Assembly: GCF_000172155.1 (NCBI RefSeq)
Contig: NZ_ABIZ01000001.1
Span: forward strand, 6,233,105-6,297,104
Direction: 5' to 3'
Source: Verrucomicrobium spinosum DSM 4136 = JCM 18804
GTDB lineage: Bacteria; Verrucomicrobiota; Verrucomicrobiia; Verrucomicrobiales; Verrucomicrobiaceae
Length of the DNA stretch: 64,000 nucleotides
In this document: positions 49,011-55,983 of the stretch, piece after piece
Layout: every line of letters begins with the position of its first letter
Position numbering within the stretch: position 1 is the first letter of the stretch
Notes under the pieces: model-generated
What the model was told of the DNA's origin: nothing
The model's database searches: none
Seen by the model: only the letters and a program-made list of their open reading frames with translations
Position numbers and translations under genes: made by a program

Positions 49011-49688
49011 TTAACGGTCTGTTGAGGTTTCCGTGGTGGTGGTTTTCTTTCGCTCAATTTCCTGAGTGGGAGCCAGCTTCCCCTTTCGTACCACTACTCG
49101 GGAGACTACCATGGAGTCACCCACCTTCGTGTAATAGACCGTGACAGGGACCCCAGTCTTCACCACCGACACATCCACGGGCTTGCCGTCTTCGTCTAGG
49201 TAGGTGGTTGTCTTGCCATAGGTGTAGCTGACAGGATCGGGACTGCCTTCCGACTTGATCAAGAACCTTGACTCTCCCCACTCGCTGACAATCCCCGCAG
49301 CGTTCATGGCAGACTCCGCAACGATTTGAGCGGCGGCGGAGGAATTCACCACCTGGGCTCTTCCCAGCACGACTTTTGTTGCCACCAGCGATTCTCCTGC
49401 CCGGGTGTAGTGGACGGTCACCGGCAGTCCGGATTTCATCATGGCAATTTCCACTGGACTCCCATCCGCATCCACATAGTGAGTTGTCTCACTGGACAGG
49501 TATTCCACTGGTGCCTCCCCGGCGGCCTTGGTGATGATAATGGATTGAGCCGAGACTTTGCTGACAATCCCTTCCGATGCTACAGGGGCAATGGTCACTT
49601 CCACCAGCTGGGCTTGAGCGTGACTGAACGAAAACAATGCTCCTGAGAACACGATGGTCACGAGGAACTTCCGAGTAATATTGTGCAT
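49011..49688 (-). CDS. Secreted protein with two tandem repeats
   Basis: This 225-residue protein has signal peptide MHNITRKFLVTIVFSGALFSFSHAQA. Two homologous repeats of about 70 residues follow: one starts GIVSKVSAQSIIITK and includes YVDADGSPVEIAMMKSGLPV and TVHYTRAGESLVATKVVL; the other starts GIVSEWGESRFLIKS and includes YLDEDGKPVDVSVVKTGVPV and TVYYTKVGDSMVVSRVVV. Each looks like a small beta-barrel (SH3/OB-like) domain. The tail is KKTTTTETSTDR. Family not recognised. The cluster element lies 34 bases before its ATG, so it likely heads a coregulated operon with the two lipoproteins. Confidence 0.75.
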   Translation of the reverse strand: MHNITRKFLVTIVFSGALFSFSHAQAQLVEVTIAPVASEGIVSKVSAQSIIITKAAGEAPVEYLSSETTHYVDADGSPVEIAMMKSGLPVTVHYTRAGESLVATKVVLGRAQVVNSSAAAQIVAESAMNAAGIVSEWGESRFLIKSEGSPDPVSYTYGKTTTYLDEDGKPVDVSVVKTGVPVTVYYTKVGDSMVVSRVVVRKGKLAPTQEIERKKTTTTETSTDR

Positions 49689-49722
49689 GGTCCCAACACT
49701 CGCTGATGCTCGCGCAGGTCGA

Positions 49723-49740
49723 TATGGGGTGTAACCCTAC
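49723..49740 (-). promoter_or_regulatory. Cluster regulatory element, copy 1
   Basis: Minus strand reads GTAGGGTTACACCCCATA. The core TACACCCCATA ends 34 bases before the ATG of the repeat protein (49688). The same core with 31-37 bases to a start codon occurs upstream of four further genes or candidates in this island. Confidence 0.55.
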
Positions 49741-49817
49741 CGGCTGGGTCACTCTTAACAAACTTCTGGAGACAACGAGAAATTTACGACAGTCTCCAGG
49801 TCCTCAATCGAAACCCA

Positions 49818-49835
49818 TGGGCACTTCACCCCATT
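49818..49835 (+). promoter_or_regulatory. Cluster regulatory element, copy 2 (degenerate)
   Basis: Plus strand reads TGGGCACTTCACCCCATT, with the core TTCACCCCATT ending 31 bases before the ATG at 49867. It has the same TGGGCA left half as the copy at 52785, with one extra base between the halves. Confidence 0.45.
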
Positions 49836-49866
49836 GGGCATTCCGGCATATCGCTTACATTTCTGG

Positions 49867-50118
49867 ATGAGCACCCACTTCCGTTCATCATCCCGACGGG
49901 GAAGCATCGTCATCTTCCTGCTTTTTCTAGCCATCGCCTACCTGTTCAGCTTTGGCCCGGTTCAGGCCCTGTACTCCAGCGGCCGCATTTCCGGTCCCAT
50001 GCCCAGAGATCTGGTGACGTTCTACAAACCTTTGCAATGGTTCTACTTAAACTCACCCATGGGCGCACCTATGGCCCGTCATGATGCATGGTGGGGTCGC
50101 CAGCTTAAGCGCTCCTAG
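49867..50118 (+). CDS. Small single-span membrane protein
   Basis: This 83-residue protein starts MSTHFRSSSRRGS. One hydrophobic segment at about 15-36 (IVIFLLFLAIAYLFSFGPVQAL) is followed by an external part with MPRDLVTFYKPLQWFYLNSP and a basic end. No family recognised. The regulatory element lies 31 bases upstream, and the two-component kinase gene follows 137 bases downstream. Confidence 0.65.
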   Translation: MSTHFRSSSRRGSIVIFLLFLAIAYLFSFGPVQALYSSGRISGPMPRDLVTFYKPLQWFYLNSPMGAPMARHDAWWGRQLKRS

Positions 50119-50255
50119 CTTTTTAAACGTTTGCCCGCCTGCCTCCTTCCGATGATGCCCCCCAGGCATTCACGATCTGGTGCAAATACCCAACGAAAAG
50201 GGAGAAAACTGGGTCCAATCAGGCAACCGCCTTGTCGTCGAATCAGGGAAAATGC

Positions 50256-51455
50256 ATGAACACAAAAAAATCTTCCCTGTCACAGACCTACCGGGCATCC
50301 CTCCGTGAGCATCTCGATCACCGCGGATCCGGTGAATCTGGCCTGAAGAACGCCCGACTCTTCGGCATCCAGGCTACAAAATCCGGCATGGAAACGCTGG
50401 CCCTTGCAAAGATCCATGAGGGGGCTCTGCGAAGCTTGCTGTCTGATGAAGCCTCACCGGCTCGCAAAAAAGCCAAAACGCTACGGGGAGCCGCCTTCTT
50501 CACAGAGGCCATTACCCCCATTGAAGAGACCCACAGGAGCATGCGGCAGGCCAACAGACGCCTGGAGAAACTTGTCAGCAGTCTGACCCGCCGGACTCAT
50601 CAGCTCGCTGCATCCAACGACAAACTGAAACACGAGATCATCCACCGCAAATCCGTGGAGGCGTCCCTCATCACCAGTGAGACGACCTCCAGCCAGTTGC
50701 TTGCAAAATCCCGCCACATGCAAGAGGACCTGCGCCACCTCTCCCGCCGGCTGCTTACCGTTCAGGAGGAGGAGCGCAAACGGATCAGTCGTGAACTGCA
50801 TGACGTCGTGGCCCAGGCCCTGACCAGCATCAATCTGCGGCTCATTACTCTGAAGACAGAAAGCAACTCAAACGCCAGAAACTTGCGTCGGCGAATCGCC
50901 ATGACCCAGCGAGTGATTGAACGTTCCGTTGAGATTGTTCATCGCTTTGCCCGTGACTTGCGCCCCACGCTTTTGGATGATCTGGGATTGATTCCCGCCC
51001 TCAAGTCTTATCTGACCGCCTACATGCAGCGAACCGGCATCAGGGTCAGCTTCTCGGTTTCTCCCAACATTGAAAGCATCGACAGCACCCGTCGCACCGT
51101 TCTCTATCGCGTCGCCCAGGAGGCTCTCACCAATGTCGCCCGCCATGCTAAAGCCAGCCAGGCAAATGTCTCGATCCGCCTGCATGCGAACAACGTCAAC
51201 ATGCAGATTCATGACAACGGTTGTGGATTTCAGGTGGAGGGCAACGCCTTCGCCAGAAGCAGCAAATGCCTTGGCCTGCTGGGCATGAAGGAACGGGTGG
51301 AAATGGTGGGTGGCACCTTCGTCGTGGCCTCCGCACCCGGCAAGGAAACGACCGTCCAGGTGGAGCTTCCTGGCAAGAAAGTCCCCTCTCGTCCCCGCCC
51401 CTCCAAACTCGCTGCGGTCAAAGAACTGCCTGACTCGGCCCATCACTCCCCATGA
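50256..51455 (+). CDS. Cytoplasmic sensor histidine kinase, NarX/DegS type
   Basis: ATG at 50256 gives 399 residues. No membrane segment was seen. A coiled coil (about 90-145; RQANRRLEKLVSSLTRRTHQLAASNDKLKHEII) leads to the HisKA_3 domain (EEERKRISRELHDVVAQALTS, phospho-His about 181). The HATPase_c domain (about 270-380) contains RVAQEALTNVARHAKASQ, DNGCGFQV and GLLGMKERVEMVGG. Its stop overlaps the response regulator start (ATGA). The input signal is not evident from sequence. Confidence 0.93.
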   Translation: MNTKKSSLSQTYRASLREHLDHRGSGESGLKNARLFGIQATKSGMETLALAKIHEGALRSLLSDEASPARKKAKTLRGAAFFTEAITPIEETHRSMRQANRRLEKLVSSLTRRTHQLAASNDKLKHEIIHRKSVEASLITSETTSSQLLAKSRHMQEDLRHLSRRLLTVQEEERKRISRELHDVVAQALTSINLRLITLKTESNSNARNLRRRIAMTQRVIERSVEIVHRFARDLRPTLLDDLGLIPALKSYLTAYMQRTGIRVSFSVSPNIESIDSTRRTVLYRVAQEALTNVARHAKASQANVSIRLHANNVNMQIHDNGCGFQVEGNAFARSSKCLGLLGMKERVEMVGGTFVVASAPGKETTVQVELPGKKVPSRPRPSKLAAVKELPDSAHHSP

Positions 51456-52162
51456 CCCCCATCACCGTACTCCTCGCAGAGGATCACACCATCGTCCGAG
51501 AGGGTCTGCGTGCTCTGTTGGAGCTTGAACCTGACATCGTCATTGTGGGACAGGCGGAGAACGGCCATCTAGCTGTGGAGTTCTGCCTCACCCTGTGTCC
51601 GGATGTGGTTGTGCTGGATATCGCGATGCCCCGCCTCAACGGACTGGAGGCCGCACGCCAGATCCTCAGGAGCGCAGCCCCTCCCAAGGTTCTCATCCTT
51701 TCCGCCCACAGTGATGATGCCTATGTCGAGCAGGTGATGGAGCTGGGCGCGTCCGGTTACCTGATCAAGCAAACCGCCGCCCATGCCCTCACCAAAGCCA
51801 TCCGGGAAGTCTATAAGGGCAATAGCTTCTTCAGCCCCACCATCTCCCGACGACGGAATCACCATGCCCAAAAGGCCTACAACCAGGGGGATCTCCCTTC
51901 AAGAAAAGCCCCCTCCCGGCTCAGTTCCCGGGAAACGGAGGTGCTGCAACTCATCGCGGAAGGCAAGGCCAACAAGGAAACAGCGGAGATCCTTCACATC
52001 AGTGTGAAAACGGTGGAAAAGCACCGCCAGAGCCTCATGGAAAAACTCAACATCCATGACACCGCCAGCCTCACCCGCCACGCCATCGCCACGGGCATCA
52101 TCGAGAGCAGCGTGCAAGTGACCATCCTGCAGGCCCTCCCTCTTCATCAGGGGCGCGAGTAA
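51452..52162 (+). CDS. Response regulator, NarL/LuxR family
   Basis: This 236-residue protein has a receiver at about 1-120 (VLLAEDHTIVREGLRALLEL, phospho-Asp in VVVLDIAMPRLNGLEAAR at about 55, LSAHSDDAYVEQVMELGASGYLIKQ) and a C-terminal LuxR HTH (LSSRETEVLQLIAEGKANKETAEILHISVKTVEKHRQSLMEKL, about 150-215). It is coupled to the kinase. It is the best candidate for the protein that binds the palindromic element of this island, since NarL-type proteins bind as dimers to inverted half-sites. This is inference from location. Confidence 0.94.
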   Translation: MTPITVLLAEDHTIVREGLRALLELEPDIVIVGQAENGHLAVEFCLTLCPDVVVLDIAMPRLNGLEAARQILRSAAPPKVLILSAHSDDAYVEQVMELGASGYLIKQTAAHALTKAIREVYKGNSFFSPTISRRRNHHAQKAYNQGDLPSRKAPSRLSSRETEVLQLIAEGKANKETAEILHISVKTVEKHRQSLMEKLNIHDTASLTRHAIATGIIESSVQVTILQALPLHQGRE

Positions 52163-52169
52163 TAACCTC

Positions 52170-52406
52170 CTAGTACCTTCTGGAAGACTGGCCCCCATAC
52201 ACGCTTCCACGCATCGTCCGTCCGTGGGAATCCCCGTGTTGTTCGAGATCGCTGTTGTTCCGTCCTGAATGGCGGCGGTCATGATTGCGATCGCCATCGT
52301 GATCATGACCGGCATGCCGGTCATTGTGATCATGGGTGTCCACGCAGCTCGCCAAGCTCAGAAGGATGGCTGTACCAGCCAGCTGTAGATAGGTTTTTGT
52401 TTTCAT
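52170..52406 (-). CDS. His/Asp-rich lipoprotein
   Basis: This 78-residue protein has signal peptide and lipobox MKTKTYLQLAGTAILLSLASC (LASC). The tail is rich in His and Asp (THDHNDRHAGHDHDGDRNHDRRH), which would be a good binding site for zinc, nickel or copper. The rest is Arg/Gly/Ser-rich (GRTMRGSVYGGQSSRRY). It converges with the response regulator (7-base gap). A degenerate element sits 37 bases before the ATG. Function: possibly metal storage or sensing at the outer membrane. Confidence 0.75.
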   Translation of the reverse strand: MKTKTYLQLAGTAILLSLASCVDTHDHNDRHAGHDHDGDRNHDRRHSGRNNSDLEQHGDSHGRTMRGSVYGGQSSRRY

Positions 52407-52443
52407 GGTCTATTTTCGGGAAGAGTTCGACAGGTCTTCCCAA

Positions 52444-52453
52444 TATGGGATGA
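52444..52453 (-). promoter_or_regulatory. Cluster regulatory element, copy 3 (degenerate half)
   Basis: Minus strand TCATCCCATA matches the core ACACCCCATA at 8 of 10 bases and ends 37 bases before the ATG at 52406. No convincing left half was seen, so this copy is the weakest. Confidence 0.35.
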
Positions 52454-52516
52454 CAAAGGACAACCCGGTTTCCCGGCTTTCACCTCGCACGAAGTTACCT
52501 GCAGTCGCCCGCACCC

Positions 52517-52540
52517 ACCATGGGGTGTACACCCCATGGT
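52517..52540. promoter_or_regulatory. Cluster regulatory element, copy 4: perfect 24-bp palindrome
   Basis: The half ACCATGGGGTGT is followed directly by its exact reverse complement, so the 24-base site is a perfect palindrome with no spacer. It contains the core TACACCCCAT. Its core ends 36 bases before the ATG of the small plus-strand frame at 52575 and about 110 bases before the His-rich lipoprotein ATG on the other strand. Confidence 0.65.
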
Positions 52541-52564
52541 CCGGCCTGCGTCGATGGGACTAAG

Positions 52565-52705
52565 TTAGGGCACAATGAGAGTTTTCCTGGTTCCATGGCT
52601 CCTGAGGCTTTGCCCGCCCGTCCGGGCAATTGGAACAAGGGTTGGGATTATCAACACGACAAGACTTGCGGTGATGGCGACCAGGACCGCTCCATCAGCA
52701 GGCAT
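52565..52705 (-). CDS. Candidate 46-residue membrane protein (alternative to 52575-52760)
   Basis: ATG at 52705 is preceded by AGGTGAG and reads MPADGAVLVAITASLVVLI, then IPTLVPIARTGGQSLRS and HGTRKTLIVP. The hydrophobic stretch and basic end resemble a single-span small membrane protein. It lies on the opposite strand to the 52575 frame; both cannot be equally real as drawn. A copy of the element lies 80 bases upstream, farther than in other copies. No family match was recognised. Confidence 0.35.
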   Translation of the reverse strand: MPADGAVLVAITASLVVLIIPTLVPIARTGGQSLRSHGTRKTLIVP

Positions 52706-52760
52706 CTCACCTATTCTCAAGAGTGGCACCCAGATCCTGTGCGCAAATAAGCACGCCTGA
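52575..52760 (+). CDS. Candidate 61-residue protein downstream of the palindrome
   Basis: ATG at 52575 follows TTAGGGCACA and reads MRVFLVPWLLRLCPPVRAIG, then TRVGIINTTRLAVMATRTAPSAG and so on. The start is hydrophobic with one basic residue. The perfect palindrome core is 36 bases upstream, as in the other element-linked genes. Codon use is less GC-rich at third positions than in the long genes, so confidence is low. It overlaps the minus-strand candidate at 52565. Confidence 0.3.
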   Translation: MRVFLVPWLLRLCPPVRAIGTRVGIINTTRLAVMATRTAPSAGISPILKSGTQILCANKHA

Positions 52761-52784
52761 AAACCAGGGCGGCACAGCTCACGG

Positions 52785-52802
52785 GTGGGCATACACCCCA
52801 TA
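52785..52802 (+). promoter_or_regulatory. Cluster regulatory element, copy 5
   Basis: Plus strand reads GTGGGCATACACCCCATA; the core TACACCCCATA is identical to copy 1. It ends 33 bases before the ATG at 52836. The following GCG and an AGCATCA farther downstream also match the sequence after copy 1. Confidence 0.55.
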
Positions 52803-52835
52803 GCGGCAAACGTCAGCATCAACGATCATCTCTCC

Positions 52836-53027
52836 ATGAAGATCACCATTCGACCACCGCACACCTTCAGACCACGTGGCTGGTCAGCATCGCATCCAAG
52901 CCCACCCCCTGCTGACGCCGAAACAGCAACCCCTGCAACGACGGATGCTGCGTGTGAGCCGGAAAAGCCAGCAGCGACGACCACGGGCTTCACATCCAAA
53001 TCCATCTCCGCAGTGTACGCGTCCTAA
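52836..53027 (+). CDS. Candidate 63-residue Ala/Thr/Pro-rich protein
   Basis: ATG at 52836 reads MKITIRPPHTFRPRGWSASH, then a Pro/Ala/Thr-rich stretch (PPPADAETATPATTDAACEPEKPAATTT) and ends SISAVYAS. There is no signal peptide. It is called because of the element 33 bases upstream and the open frame; no family is known. The 690 bases between 52407 and 53097 otherwise contain only this frame, the 52565/52575 candidates and three elements. Confidence 0.4.
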   Translation: MKITIRPPHTFRPRGWSASHPSPPPADAETATPATTDAACEPEKPAATTTGFTSKSISAVYAS

Positions 53028-53096
53028 ACACGAGCCCGCCCGCCGTCCCACTTGGCTGAGGCCAGGGTTCCGCCCCATTCTTTTAAGCTTCTTCGC

Positions 53097-54254
53097 ATGC
53101 ACACTGACGAATCCATCTCCTCCTCCAGCTTTGGCGCCCCCCACAAGCAGTCGGAGATGGACTGGGTACCTACAGAGTTTCTTCCAGGCTTTGACCACCC
53201 GCAGCCCCGGCACGCTCCCAGCCTGGAGATGGTCCAACCGAACCTCTCATGGCATGCCCCGGCTTGCCCCCTCCGGAATGACCAGGCAGTTTCATATAAC
53301 CATGCGAGTCTGGCAGCGGAGGCTGAAAGGAGGTCTCCCCAGGGGGGCCGTTGCCCGGGCTCCGCCATGAATGACGTCGTGCCCCCACGCATGCCGACAG
53401 TGATGGTGGGGGAGAGGTGTCGGGAGCTGGACTGTCTGGAGGCAAAACGCCAGAACAGCATCAAGGATCATTTTCTTGCCGTTCTCGCCCACGAGCTTCG
53501 CACCCCTCTCCAAGCCATCATGGCCTGGACGGAAGTCCTCGCCACAAGCTCTTCAGCCCCTGCTGAACTGGCTCAGGGTCTCGCGGTCATCAGGGAGAGT
53601 GCCAAAGGTCAATCCCGCCTGATTGAAGACCTTCTGGACGTGAGCAGGATGGTCTCTGGAAACATCCGGCTTGAGGTACAGCCCGTGGACCTTGCCGCGA
53701 TCATTCAGCTCTCCGTCGATATGCTCAAGCCCCTGGCATGCTCCAGAGAAGTCCTGGTTCAAACATCACTCTCCCGCAGCCTCGGGATGGCTCACGCCGA
53801 CCCCATTCGACTTCACCAGATCTTTGGGAATCTCCTGACCAACGCGATCAAGTTCACCCCACCAGGCGGTCACATCCATTTGCATCTGGATGGCACCCCA
53901 TCCCATTTCACCTTCAAAATTGCTGACAACGGCCAGGGAATCAATGCCGCCTTTCTCCCCTATGTATTCGATCGCTTCCTCCGCGGCGATACCGGCACCA
54001 CCCGGAGGCACGATGGTCTCGGGCTGGGCCTTTCAATTGTGAAACACCTCGTCGAACTGCATGGCGGCAGTATTCAGGCGGCCAGTGATGGATTGGGCAA
54101 GGGAGCCACCTTCACGGTATGGCTCCCCATCATCACCCCGCCCGCCCGCCCTGCCGCCAGTGCCAATATCCCCCTGCCGTTCAGCCAGCCACTCGAGATG
54201 GTCGTGGCGGCGGGCCAACATGCGGTGGCAGAGAGCAAATCGGCGGTCGCGTGA
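53097..54254 (+). CDS. Histidine kinase without a membrane sensor
   Basis: ATG at 53097 gives 385 residues. The first about 115 residues are Pro/Ser-rich with no recognised domain. HisKA follows: KDHFLAVLAHELRTPLQAIMAWTEVLAT (phospho-His about 132). The HATPase_c domain has GNLLTNAIKFTPPGG, DNGQGINAAFLPYVFDRFLRGD and GLGLGLSIVKHLVELHGGSIQAASDGLGKGATFTVWLP. This CheY-less, PAS-less kinase resembles the kinase part of hybrid kinases and may be an orphan. It lies at the end of the island, with no regulator next to it. Confidence 0.9.
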   Translation: MHTDESISSSSFGAPHKQSEMDWVPTEFLPGFDHPQPRHAPSLEMVQPNLSWHAPACPLRNDQAVSYNHASLAAEAERRSPQGGRCPGSAMNDVVPPRMPTVMVGERCRELDCLEAKRQNSIKDHFLAVLAHELRTPLQAIMAWTEVLATSSSAPAELAQGLAVIRESAKGQSRLIEDLLDVSRMVSGNIRLEVQPVDLAAIIQLSVDMLKPLACSREVLVQTSLSRSLGMAHADPIRLHQIFGNLLTNAIKFTPPGGHIHLHLDGTPSHFTFKIADNGQGINAAFLPYVFDRFLRGDTGTTRRHDGLGLGLSIVKHLVELHGGSIQAASDGLGKGATFTVWLPIITPPARPAASANIPLPFSQPLEMVVAAGQHAVAESKSAVA

Positions 54255-54373: not shown

Positions 54374-55096
54374 TCAGGCAGCCGCGGCGGCATAGCCCTT
54401 GGCCACCTCGGCCCAGTTTACCACATTCCACCAAGCGGTGATGTAGTCGGGCCGCTTGTTCTGATACTTGAGGTAGTAGGCGTGCTCCCAGACATCGAGC
54501 CCGAGGATTGGCGTGCCCAGATCGCCGTCCGGTACAATGCCCTTCATCCAAGGATTATCCTGGTTGGGCGTGCTCGTCACTGCCAGCTTGCCGTCCGCTT
54601 TCACCACCAACCAGGCCCAGCCAGAACCAAAGCGCTTGGTGGCCGCTTCACCGAAGAGTTTCTTGAAATCATCCACACTTGAGAAAGTGCTCTGGATCGC
54701 GGCACCCAACTTGCCATCCGGGCCCTTGGCAACGCTGCCGGCAGGGGCCATCCAGCTCCAGAAAAGCGTGTGATTCACGTGGCCGCCGCCATTGTTGCGC
54801 ACGGCGGTCTGGGAATCCGTCGGGAGGGCGGAAAGGTCCTTGATCAGTTCAAGTGCATCTTTGCCGCCCACTTTGGCAGCATCAAGCGCCTTGTTGAGAT
54901 TGGTCACGTATGCGGCGTGATGCTTGTCGTGGTGAATCGTCATTGTCTGGGCGTCGATGTACGGCTCAAGGGCCTCCGGCGCATACGGCAACTTGCCCAG
55001 CTCCAGCGGAAACGCCGCGGCGGCTTGCAGAGGGGACGGCAACACGGAGCCCGCGACGGCGGCTCCACCAGCAACAAGGAAACTGCGGCGGTTCAT
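54374..55096 (-). CDS. Exported Fe/Mn superoxide dismutase (copy 1)
   Basis: This 240-residue SOD has N-terminal signal [27 protein letters not shown], of twin-arginine type. Metal ligands are His55 (MTIHHDKHH), His109 ([11 protein letters not shown]), Asp201 and His205 ([11 protein letters not shown]). Gly103-105 and Gln179 (NQDNPWM) are the Mn-type pair at the second sphere. It removes superoxide outside the cytoplasm. It is next to a second exported SOD, and the two share [14 protein letters not shown]. Confidence 0.96.
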
Positions 55097-55239: not shown

Positions 55240-55983
55240 TCATCGGGCAGTTGCCACGGCAAAACTCTGCTCCACCCGCGTCCAGTTGACGACGTTCCAC
55301 CATGCCGATACATAGTCCTGACGTCGGTTCTGATATTTCAGATAGTAGGCATGCTCCCACACATCGAGGCCCAGAATGGGCAGTCCGCACTCCTCGTCAG
55401 GGACCAGCCCACACATGGCTGGATTATCCTGATCAGGCGTCGAAGTCACGATCAATTTCCCGTCTTCTCTCACGCTCAACCAAGCCCAACCTGAGCCAAA
55501 CCGAGTCATGGCTGCCGCAGCAAAGACGGACTTAAATGCATCAAGGCTGCCATACTCTTTCTGAATCGCCTCCGCGAGACGCCCTTGGGGCCCCAGGGGA
55601 GACTTGCCCGGGGGCGTGAGGATCCGCCAGAAGATGGTGTGATTCACATGCCCGCCCCCATTCTGACGGAGGGCCATCTGCAATTCCGGAGTCACCCCGG
55701 CAGGTGGATGATTGAGCCCCCGAATCAACGAAAAGGCATTCGCGGCCCGGAGATTGCCCTTGCGAAGCGCCGCCTGCAGCCGGCTCAGGTAAGCGGCATG
55801 ATGCACCTGATAATGGAGGCGCATGGTCTGGGCATCAATGTAAGGCTCCAATGCCTCCGGCTCGAATGGCAGAGGTTCAAGGTGCAACGGCACCCCTTGT
55901 GCGATAGGCGGAGTGGCCCCTTCGGAATAGACTCCCCCCACCATGGATCCTCCAGCTAGGGCGAGAAATGCACGACGATTCAT
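55240..55983 (-). CDS. Exported Fe/Mn superoxide dismutase (copy 2)
   Basis: This 247-residue paralogue of the adjacent gene has Tat-like signal MNRRAFLALAGGSMVGGVYS. Ligands are His57 (RLHYQVHHAAYL), His115 ([11 protein letters not shown]), Asp207 and His211 ([11 protein letters not shown]), with Gln185 (DQDNPAM). The core is conserved but the central region (LRKGNLRAANAFSLIRGLNHPPAG) has drifted, so the duplication is not recent. It has an additional Cys (PAMCGLVPDEECG). Gap to the downstream copy is 143 bases. Confidence 0.95.
   Translation of the reverse strand: MNRRAFLALAGGSMVGGVYSEGATPPIAQGVPLHLEPLPFEPEALEPYIDAQTMRLHYQVHHAAYLSRLQAALRKGNLRAANAFSLIRGLNHPPAGVTPELQMALRQNGGGHVNHTIFWRILTPPGKSPLGPQGRLAEAIQKEYGSLDAFKSVFAAAAMTRFGSGWAWLSVREDGKLIVTSTPDQDNPAMCGLVPDEECGLPILGLDVWEHAYYLKYQNRRQDYVSAWWNVVNWTRVEQSFAVATAR

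Follow-up and report, generated by a model that had tools for sequence, protein, structure and literature searches.

NarL and DevR/DosR are response regulators of the NarL/FixJ family that activate transcription from a palindrome near -42, and general stress regulons are run by SigB, EcfG, and RpoS. Here we describe a locus that resembles both, located in a 64-kb stretch of the 8.22-Mb genome of Verrucomicrobium spinosum (G000:C1:6233105-6297104, hereafter the window), where a short word is repeated around the genes for a histidine kinase and a NarL-type regulator. This word is very probably one half of a phylum-wide two-component operator from which the NarL-type regulator would activate leaderless stress-gene promoters. 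As in NarL and DevR/DosR, the regulator combines a receiver with a GerE helix-turn-helix (HTH), the operator is an inverted repeat, and the predicted activator position is beside the polymerase. In contrast to those systems, the half-sites read ACCCCAT with a spacer of 3 or 4, many of the targets are predicted to be leaderless, and the system is spread through Verrucomicrobiota. Its target types (CsbD, Dps-like ferritin, OsmC, and BON) overlap with those of the SigB, EcfG, and RpoS regulons, from which it differs in apparently relying on a two-component activator with no dedicated sigma factor. No earlier description of the operator or the regulon was found in the open-licence papers searched.

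In the most likely mechanism, the phosphorylated NarL-type regulator would bind as a dimer to ATGGGGT-N4-ACCCCAT or GGTAGGGT-TWC-ACCCCAT, centred near -44, and once bound would replace the -35 contact and activate RNA polymerase of the housekeeping type at a -10 element approximately 22 nucleotides (nt) downstream, with transcription predicted to begin at the ATG or within a few bases of it. The kinase-regulator pair itself lies downstream of one operator, and a partner protein or cytoplasmic stress signal may switch the kinase on, as suggested by its RsbU_N-like domain and coiled coil. The sequences themselves show the operators, their spacing, the -10 elements, where the ATG falls, the missing Shine-Dalgarno enrichment, and the co-occurrence and linkage with the regulator; regulator binding and phosphorylation, activation rather than repression, the transcript start, and an inducing stress are what we infer. 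A broader picture, in which Verrucomicrobiota share a widespread stress regulon with a NarL-type activator in place of a sigma factor, a kinase with an RsbU-type domain, leaderless promoters, and, in some genera, tuning by a half-kinase, seems to us evenly poised between right and wrong. An operator of exact geometry in a little-studied phylum would allow candidate regulon members to be read from the sequences of cultured and uncultured genomes, would predict that a stress activator commonly gives rise to leaderless mRNAs, and would join an RsbU-type sensor to a two-component output.

Exact copies of ACACCCCAT are present at 49724-49732 (-), 52520-52528 (-), 52529-52537 (+), and 52793-52801 (+), the second and third of which sit inside one perfect palindrome, and TCACCCCAT is present at 49826-49834 (+). 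A preliminary description of this DNA had proposed five sites sharing a 10-base-pair (bp) core; the element is instead larger, approximately 18-24 bp with two half-sites, and four of the five sites were upheld as operators. These are given below with their -10 elements and with scores from a position weight matrix (PWM) whose training set excluded the window's own genus.

49724..49741, minus strand: operator 1, asymmetric class (GGTAGGGT-TAC-ACCCCAT), identical in two congeners; PWM 31.1
49696..49701, minus strand: probable -10 GAGTGT (A and last T fit TAnnnT), 22 nt past operator 1
49817..49834, plus strand: operator 2, ATGGGCA-CTTC-ACCCCAT, one arm degenerate, identical in two congeners; PWM 14.1, with -10 20.0
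49856..49861, plus strand: -10 TACATT, 21 nt past operator 2
52520..52537, promoter on both sides: operator 3, perfect palindrome ATGGGGT-GTAC-ACCCCAT, identical in two congeners; PWM 30.2 and 32.4
52492..52497, minus strand: -10 TAACTT, 22 nt from the palindrome on its minus side; TACCTT and TAACTT at equal offset in the congeners
52561..52566, plus strand: -10 TAAGTT, 23 nt past the palindrome on its plus side; TATGAT in both congeners
52784..52801, plus strand: operator 4, GGTGGGC-ATAC-ACCCCAT, 17/18 bp identical in G003; PWM 16.5
52824..52829, plus strand: probable -10 GATCAT (A and last T fit), 22 nt past operator 4

The 18-bp operators at 49724, 49817, and 52520 stand out as identical blocks amid diverged intergenic DNA in G001 and G003, the congeners with the locus, the stretch at 52784 lying outside the G001 contig piece. 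When the whole 64-kb window was scanned with the PWM, the four operators in their six orientations took the top places with scores of 17.1-38.3 compared to 11.2 for the next hit; elsewhere in this genome, in stretches totalling 232 kb that were chosen for holding the 9-mer, the maximum was 14.9. The perfect 24-bp palindrome reported earlier at 52517-52540 was confirmed as operator 3 extended with its flanks. The fifth proposed site, TCATCCCAT at 52444, was rejected, being altered in both congeners, lacking a TAnnnT at the required place, and absent from the PWM hits. The shared AGCATCA after 49723 and 52785 lies outside the conserved motif.

Downstream of each of the four operators, at a distance of 21-23 nt, lies a -10 element that fits TAnnnT fully or nearly, and together the operators form five promoters, four of which have an ATG 32-37 nt downstream. 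The regular start-codon spacing claimed earlier held at four sites, where the distance from CCCCAT to the next ATG is 35 nt for operator 1, 32 for operator 2, 37 for the plus side of the palindrome, and 34 for operator 4, but not for the gene starting at 52406. The minus side of the palindrome accounts for this gene better than the 52444 site does, with a predicted leader of approximately 78 nt between promoter and ATG. The suspicion of an unusual promoter was borne out by the order of operator, approximately 22 nt, -10 element, and start codon at the predicted transcript start.

To place the motif in a wider context, we used 57 closer genomes, 387 sampled phylum genomes, and a collection of 84,980 genomes. 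Kinase homologs were present in 19 of the 57 genomes, the window's own included, and comparison of the surrounding loci identified related sites in the kinase loci of other genera. In a set of 158 sites, drawn from loci chosen for kinase or motif and with each palindrome counted once per direction, 66 belong to the palindrome class ATGGGGT-N4-ACCCCAT and 92 to the asymmetric class GGTAGGGT-TWC-ACCCCAT, so that the palindrome cannot be the sole operator form; RG, often followed by C, usually comes next after the operator. The idea of a purely local operator was overturned by the recurrence of the motif over the phylum: AGGGTTNCACCCCATNG has 74 copies in 31 of the 387 phylum genomes and its reversed control none, while the 57 closer genomes hold 94 copies of AGGGTNNNACCCCAT against 8 reversed and 184 of GGGTNNNNACCCCAT against 36 reversed. 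In the full collection, GTAGGGTTWCACCCCATRGC was found in at least 114 stretches compared to approximately 1.9 expected under uniform base composition. Among the 80 GTAGGGTTWCACCCCATRGC loci listed, 58 by our count bear titles of Verrucomicrobiota or its subgroups, the others comprising 8 from Lentisphaerae, 6 with Kiritimatiellae or similar titles, 6 unnamed bacteria, and one each from the PVC group and Phycisphaerae. The contig titled Phycisphaerae (L297), which bears the 20-bp motif, may have received it by transfer, may be misbinned, or may show that the system reaches further.

The short word itself behaves differently. The preliminary description had asked for a genome-wide scan of its core; the 9-mer, with 74 copies in 8.22 Mb compared to 47 of the reversed word and many copies within long frames, is no genome-wide marker, and the 10-bp core was rejected as one too; with one mismatch allowed, the 9-mer is at chance level in the window (18 found, 15.7 expected). 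What is unusual is its clustering, as 4 of the 74 exact copies, two being the arms of one palindrome, fall in 3 kb (rough Poisson P of at least three copies per 3-kb window, 3.5e-6). Several operators per contig within tens of kb were also observed elsewhere (G028:C61, G032:C67, G211:C8, G059:C7, and G150:C24), a pattern that hints at target genes being clustered into stress islands near the regulator.

Promoter geometry was assessed in the 158-site set and in a second set of 89 sites from the GTAGGGTTWCACCCCATRGC collection scan, in which duplicate contexts were merged and three sites overlap the first set. TANNNT lies exactly 22 nt past CCCCAT in 52 of the 89 sites and at 21-25 nt in 64, compared to 4.7 in shuffles; without the three shared sites the counts are 51 and 62 of 86, with an ATG at 33-38 nt in 27 of 86. 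The peak is weaker in the 158-site set (22 nt in 23 of 92 asymmetric sites, 21-23 nt in 14 of 66 palindrome directions). Counted from the -10 element, the predicted start lies approximately 34 nt past CCCCAT, where a pyrimidine (0.77) and then A (0.42) are favoured, and the ATG is most frequent at 34-36 nt for asymmetric sites and at 35-37 nt for palindromes. An ATG 33-38 nt from the operator is present in 75 of 158 sites and in 28 of 89 in the second set, compared to 8 on the opposite strand, and Shine-Dalgarno-like words are not enriched in either (13 of 74 against 10.0 shuffled in the first set; 0 of 28 in the second). One set of downstream ORFs was picked by the ATG closest to 36 nt, a choice biased towards that distance; the ATG histograms involved no such selection. 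With a -10 element at approximately 22 nt, transcription is predicted to start on the ATG or right next to it; many of the target mRNAs would then lack a leader, and the operator-to-ATG spacing would be fixed. In the subset with an ATG at 33-38 nt, a -10 element placing the predicted start at the ATG is combined with no Shine-Dalgarno enrichment. The regular spacing is best read as a signature of leaderless promoters on which the centre of an activator would sit near -44.

The regulator encoded at 51452-52162 is most likely the reader of these operators. It has a receiver (PF00072, 1.8e-26) and a C-terminal GerE/LuxR HTH (PF00196, 2.5e-18), D56 and K106, which we take to be the acceptor aspartate and lysine of the receiver, are invariant in 17 of 17 aligned orthologs, and the recognition helix is nearly invariant among orthologs and differs in paralogs. 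Orthologs were called at more than 270 bits in the 387-genome scan and at 56% identity plus the shared helix in the 57 genomes, cut-offs chosen after a gap had been seen. With profile A2, an ortholog was detected in 49 of the 387 genomes, comprising 25 of the 31 AGGGTTNCACCCCATNG genomes compared to 24 of the 356 others (Fisher p=2e-20) and, by family, 19 of 24 motif families compared to 6 of 56 (p=4e-9), where the tests assume independent genomes or families. Within the 57 genomes, 67 asymmetric sites fall in the 19 that have an ortholog, and 18 of these 19 genomes have at least one site. Linkage was assessed for 65 sites in ortholog-bearing genomes, of which 18 lie at most 10 kb from the regulator gene and 32 on the regulator contig, the chance rate for linkage being a rough assumption. 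An unbiased check was provided by 22 regulator loci (L214-L235, 21 genomes) from genomes missed by the strict pattern: a relaxed operator was present in 10 of them (14 sites). Over all 40 regulator loci, 18 of which were selected when the motif was already known (18 of the 20 companion loci came from known motif and regulator genomes), there were 50 relaxed sites and none reversed. The earlier suggestion of one factor, perhaps the NarL-type regulator, gains from co-occurrence, gene linkage, and footprint conservation.

Several observations weigh against this reading. At the locus itself, two of the five -10 elements (GAGTGT and GATCAT) are imperfect, and no regulon was established beyond the locus in the window's own genome, where AGGGTNNNACCCCAT occurs once, in operator 1 (reversed 1), and GGGTNNNNACCCCAT seven times (reversed 5). 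An ATG at 33-38 nt is missing from 61 of the 89 sites, 39 of which have TANNNT at 22 nt, so that a leaderless start is common and not universal; these sites would have leaders or other start codons. The regulator and motif are also imperfectly matched, as 24 ortholog-bearing genomes lack the strict motif, with 12 of their 22 loci lacking a relaxed operator, and 10 of the 38 genomes without an ortholog among the 57 still hold 27 asymmetric sites. Six of the 31 motif genomes have no ortholog by the cut-off, and in two genomes 94-95% complete (G029 and G035) sites are retained and only regulator paralogs were found when all candidates were scored. These last two observations favour an unlikely alternative in which the operator is real and is read by another LuxR-type regulator or an unrelated factor travelling with the kinase-regulator pair. 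Such a reader is difficult to reconcile with the co-occurrence in 19 families, the sites lying at most 10 kb away from the regulator gene, and the operators upstream of kinase genes in relatives, and several of the exceptions are fragmented drafts, including G016, which accounts for 11 of the 27 asymmetric sites and whose contig ends inside the kinase gene.

It is less probable still that the regulator binds beside the promoter as a repressor of stress-gene transcription. Site position alone is compatible with repression; however, the site ends near -35 and no conserved TTGACA-like -35 element follows at the expected place, where the consensus past CCCCAT is RGC, an absence that fits an activator-dependent promoter. 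The fixed distances to the -10 element and ATG could also suggest the upstream element of an alternative (extracytoplasmic function-type) sigma factor rather than an activator site, but this is very improbable given that the half-sites make inverted repeats, one class being a perfect palindrome acting both ways, that the motif ends 22 nt ahead of the -10, beyond the usual -35 to -10 distance of 16-18, and that the -10 TAnnnT is of the housekeeping type.

Returning to the NarL-type regulator as activator, the genes arranged around the four operators are as follows.

49011..49688, minus strand: 225-amino-acid (aa) protein with an exported-type N-terminus; predicted operator 1 target, ATG 35 nt past CCCCAT
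49867..50118, plus strand: 83-aa membrane-type protein, the first gene past operator 2, ahead of the kinase-regulator pair
50256..51455, plus strand: histidine kinase with a probable RsbU_N-like domain, coiled coil, HisKA_3, and HATPase_c
51452..52162, plus strand: NarL/FixJ-type response regulator, the proposed operator reader
52170..52406, minus strand: 78-aa lipoprotein-like protein; predicted target of the palindrome's minus side
52575..52750, plus strand: DUF3300 gene relic behind the intact palindrome and -10; 469 aa in congener G003
52836..53027, plus strand: 63-aa open reading frame (ORF), ATG 52836, start kept in G003; doubtful gene

The operator 2 promoter precedes the 83-aa gene and then the kinase-regulator pair. 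Among the window's small proteins, including those of 225 and 83 aa, no Pfam family scored above cut-off. Comparison with the congener shows the 61-aa ORF at 52575, previously taken as the gene behind the palindrome, to be a decayed DUF3300 gene. The 63-aa ORF is followed by a HisKA kinase ORF (53052-54254), and the operator 4 promoter leads into the 63-aa ORF and perhaps also the kinase. Further along lie two adjacent Fe/Mn superoxide dismutases (54377-55096 and 55243-55983, both minus strand), the first with a weak twin-arginine translocation signal match; the PWM scan of the window identified no operator of the present class ahead of either gene.

Across genomes, Pfam families were assigned to proteins starting 33-38 nt past an operator (58 of 59 scanned, one ortholog of the 225-aa protein being omitted; 25 of 31 families listed). 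The 58 proteins include DUF4142 (5), CsbD (5), ferritin-like (3), DUF2934 (3), MCRA (2), DUF3300 (2), BON (2), and DUF5670 (2), with single hits to OsmC, Pmp3, YkuD, aldehyde dehydrogenase, an alpha-amylase-type enzyme, and a polyketide-synthase-like protein. By its likeness to known general stress regulons, the list suggests stress and envelope functions, although some sites, such as that ahead of the polyketide-synthase-like gene, may be chance. The small exported proteins that the preliminary description saw as the controlled cluster are part of the predicted targets, but the gene set is a wider, apparently stress-type one.

The kinase may resemble RsbU-type proteins in its layout, in which a probable RsbU_N-like domain at the N-terminus precedes a long helix of the coiled-coil type and the output domain comes last. 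Its N-terminus scores 13.7 bits against RsbU_N, below the 25.5-bit cut-off, while E values of 0.1 or lower were obtained for 9 of 13 orthologs (best 1.5e-4), and a profile of the region has RsbU 1w53 as its first match in the PDB (E 0.012). The structural model consists of three short helices and one long helix with a mean predicted local distance difference test (pLDDT) score of 87.5. Foldseek against the PDB returned a best E of 0.53, with the stressosome entry 3zta at rank 2 (E 0.56) and RsbU not among the best 50 matches. Unlike in the RsbU/stressosome pathway, a HisKA_3 kinase provides the output together with a NarL-type regulator, and own-genome scans for STAS and HATPase_c_2 revealed no RsbR-RsbS-RsbT cluster, and hence no complete stressosome cluster, yielding a single HATPase_c_2-STAS pair. 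This pair, which lies approximately 17 kb past the window (G000:C1:6314063-6314772) and in which the STAS protein comes after the HATPase_c_2 protein, is RsbW/RsbV-like and a possible partner for the kinase's RsbU_N-like domain.

In some relatives (L084-L089), an open frame of 242-324 aa directly upstream of the kinase gene encodes a half-kinase, of which the window has none, consisting of the kinase's N-terminal domain and its dimerisation/phosphoacceptor region without the ATPase domain. This protein may form heterodimers with the kinase and thereby tune it; its acceptor histidine is kept in three of the six examples and substituted in the other three.

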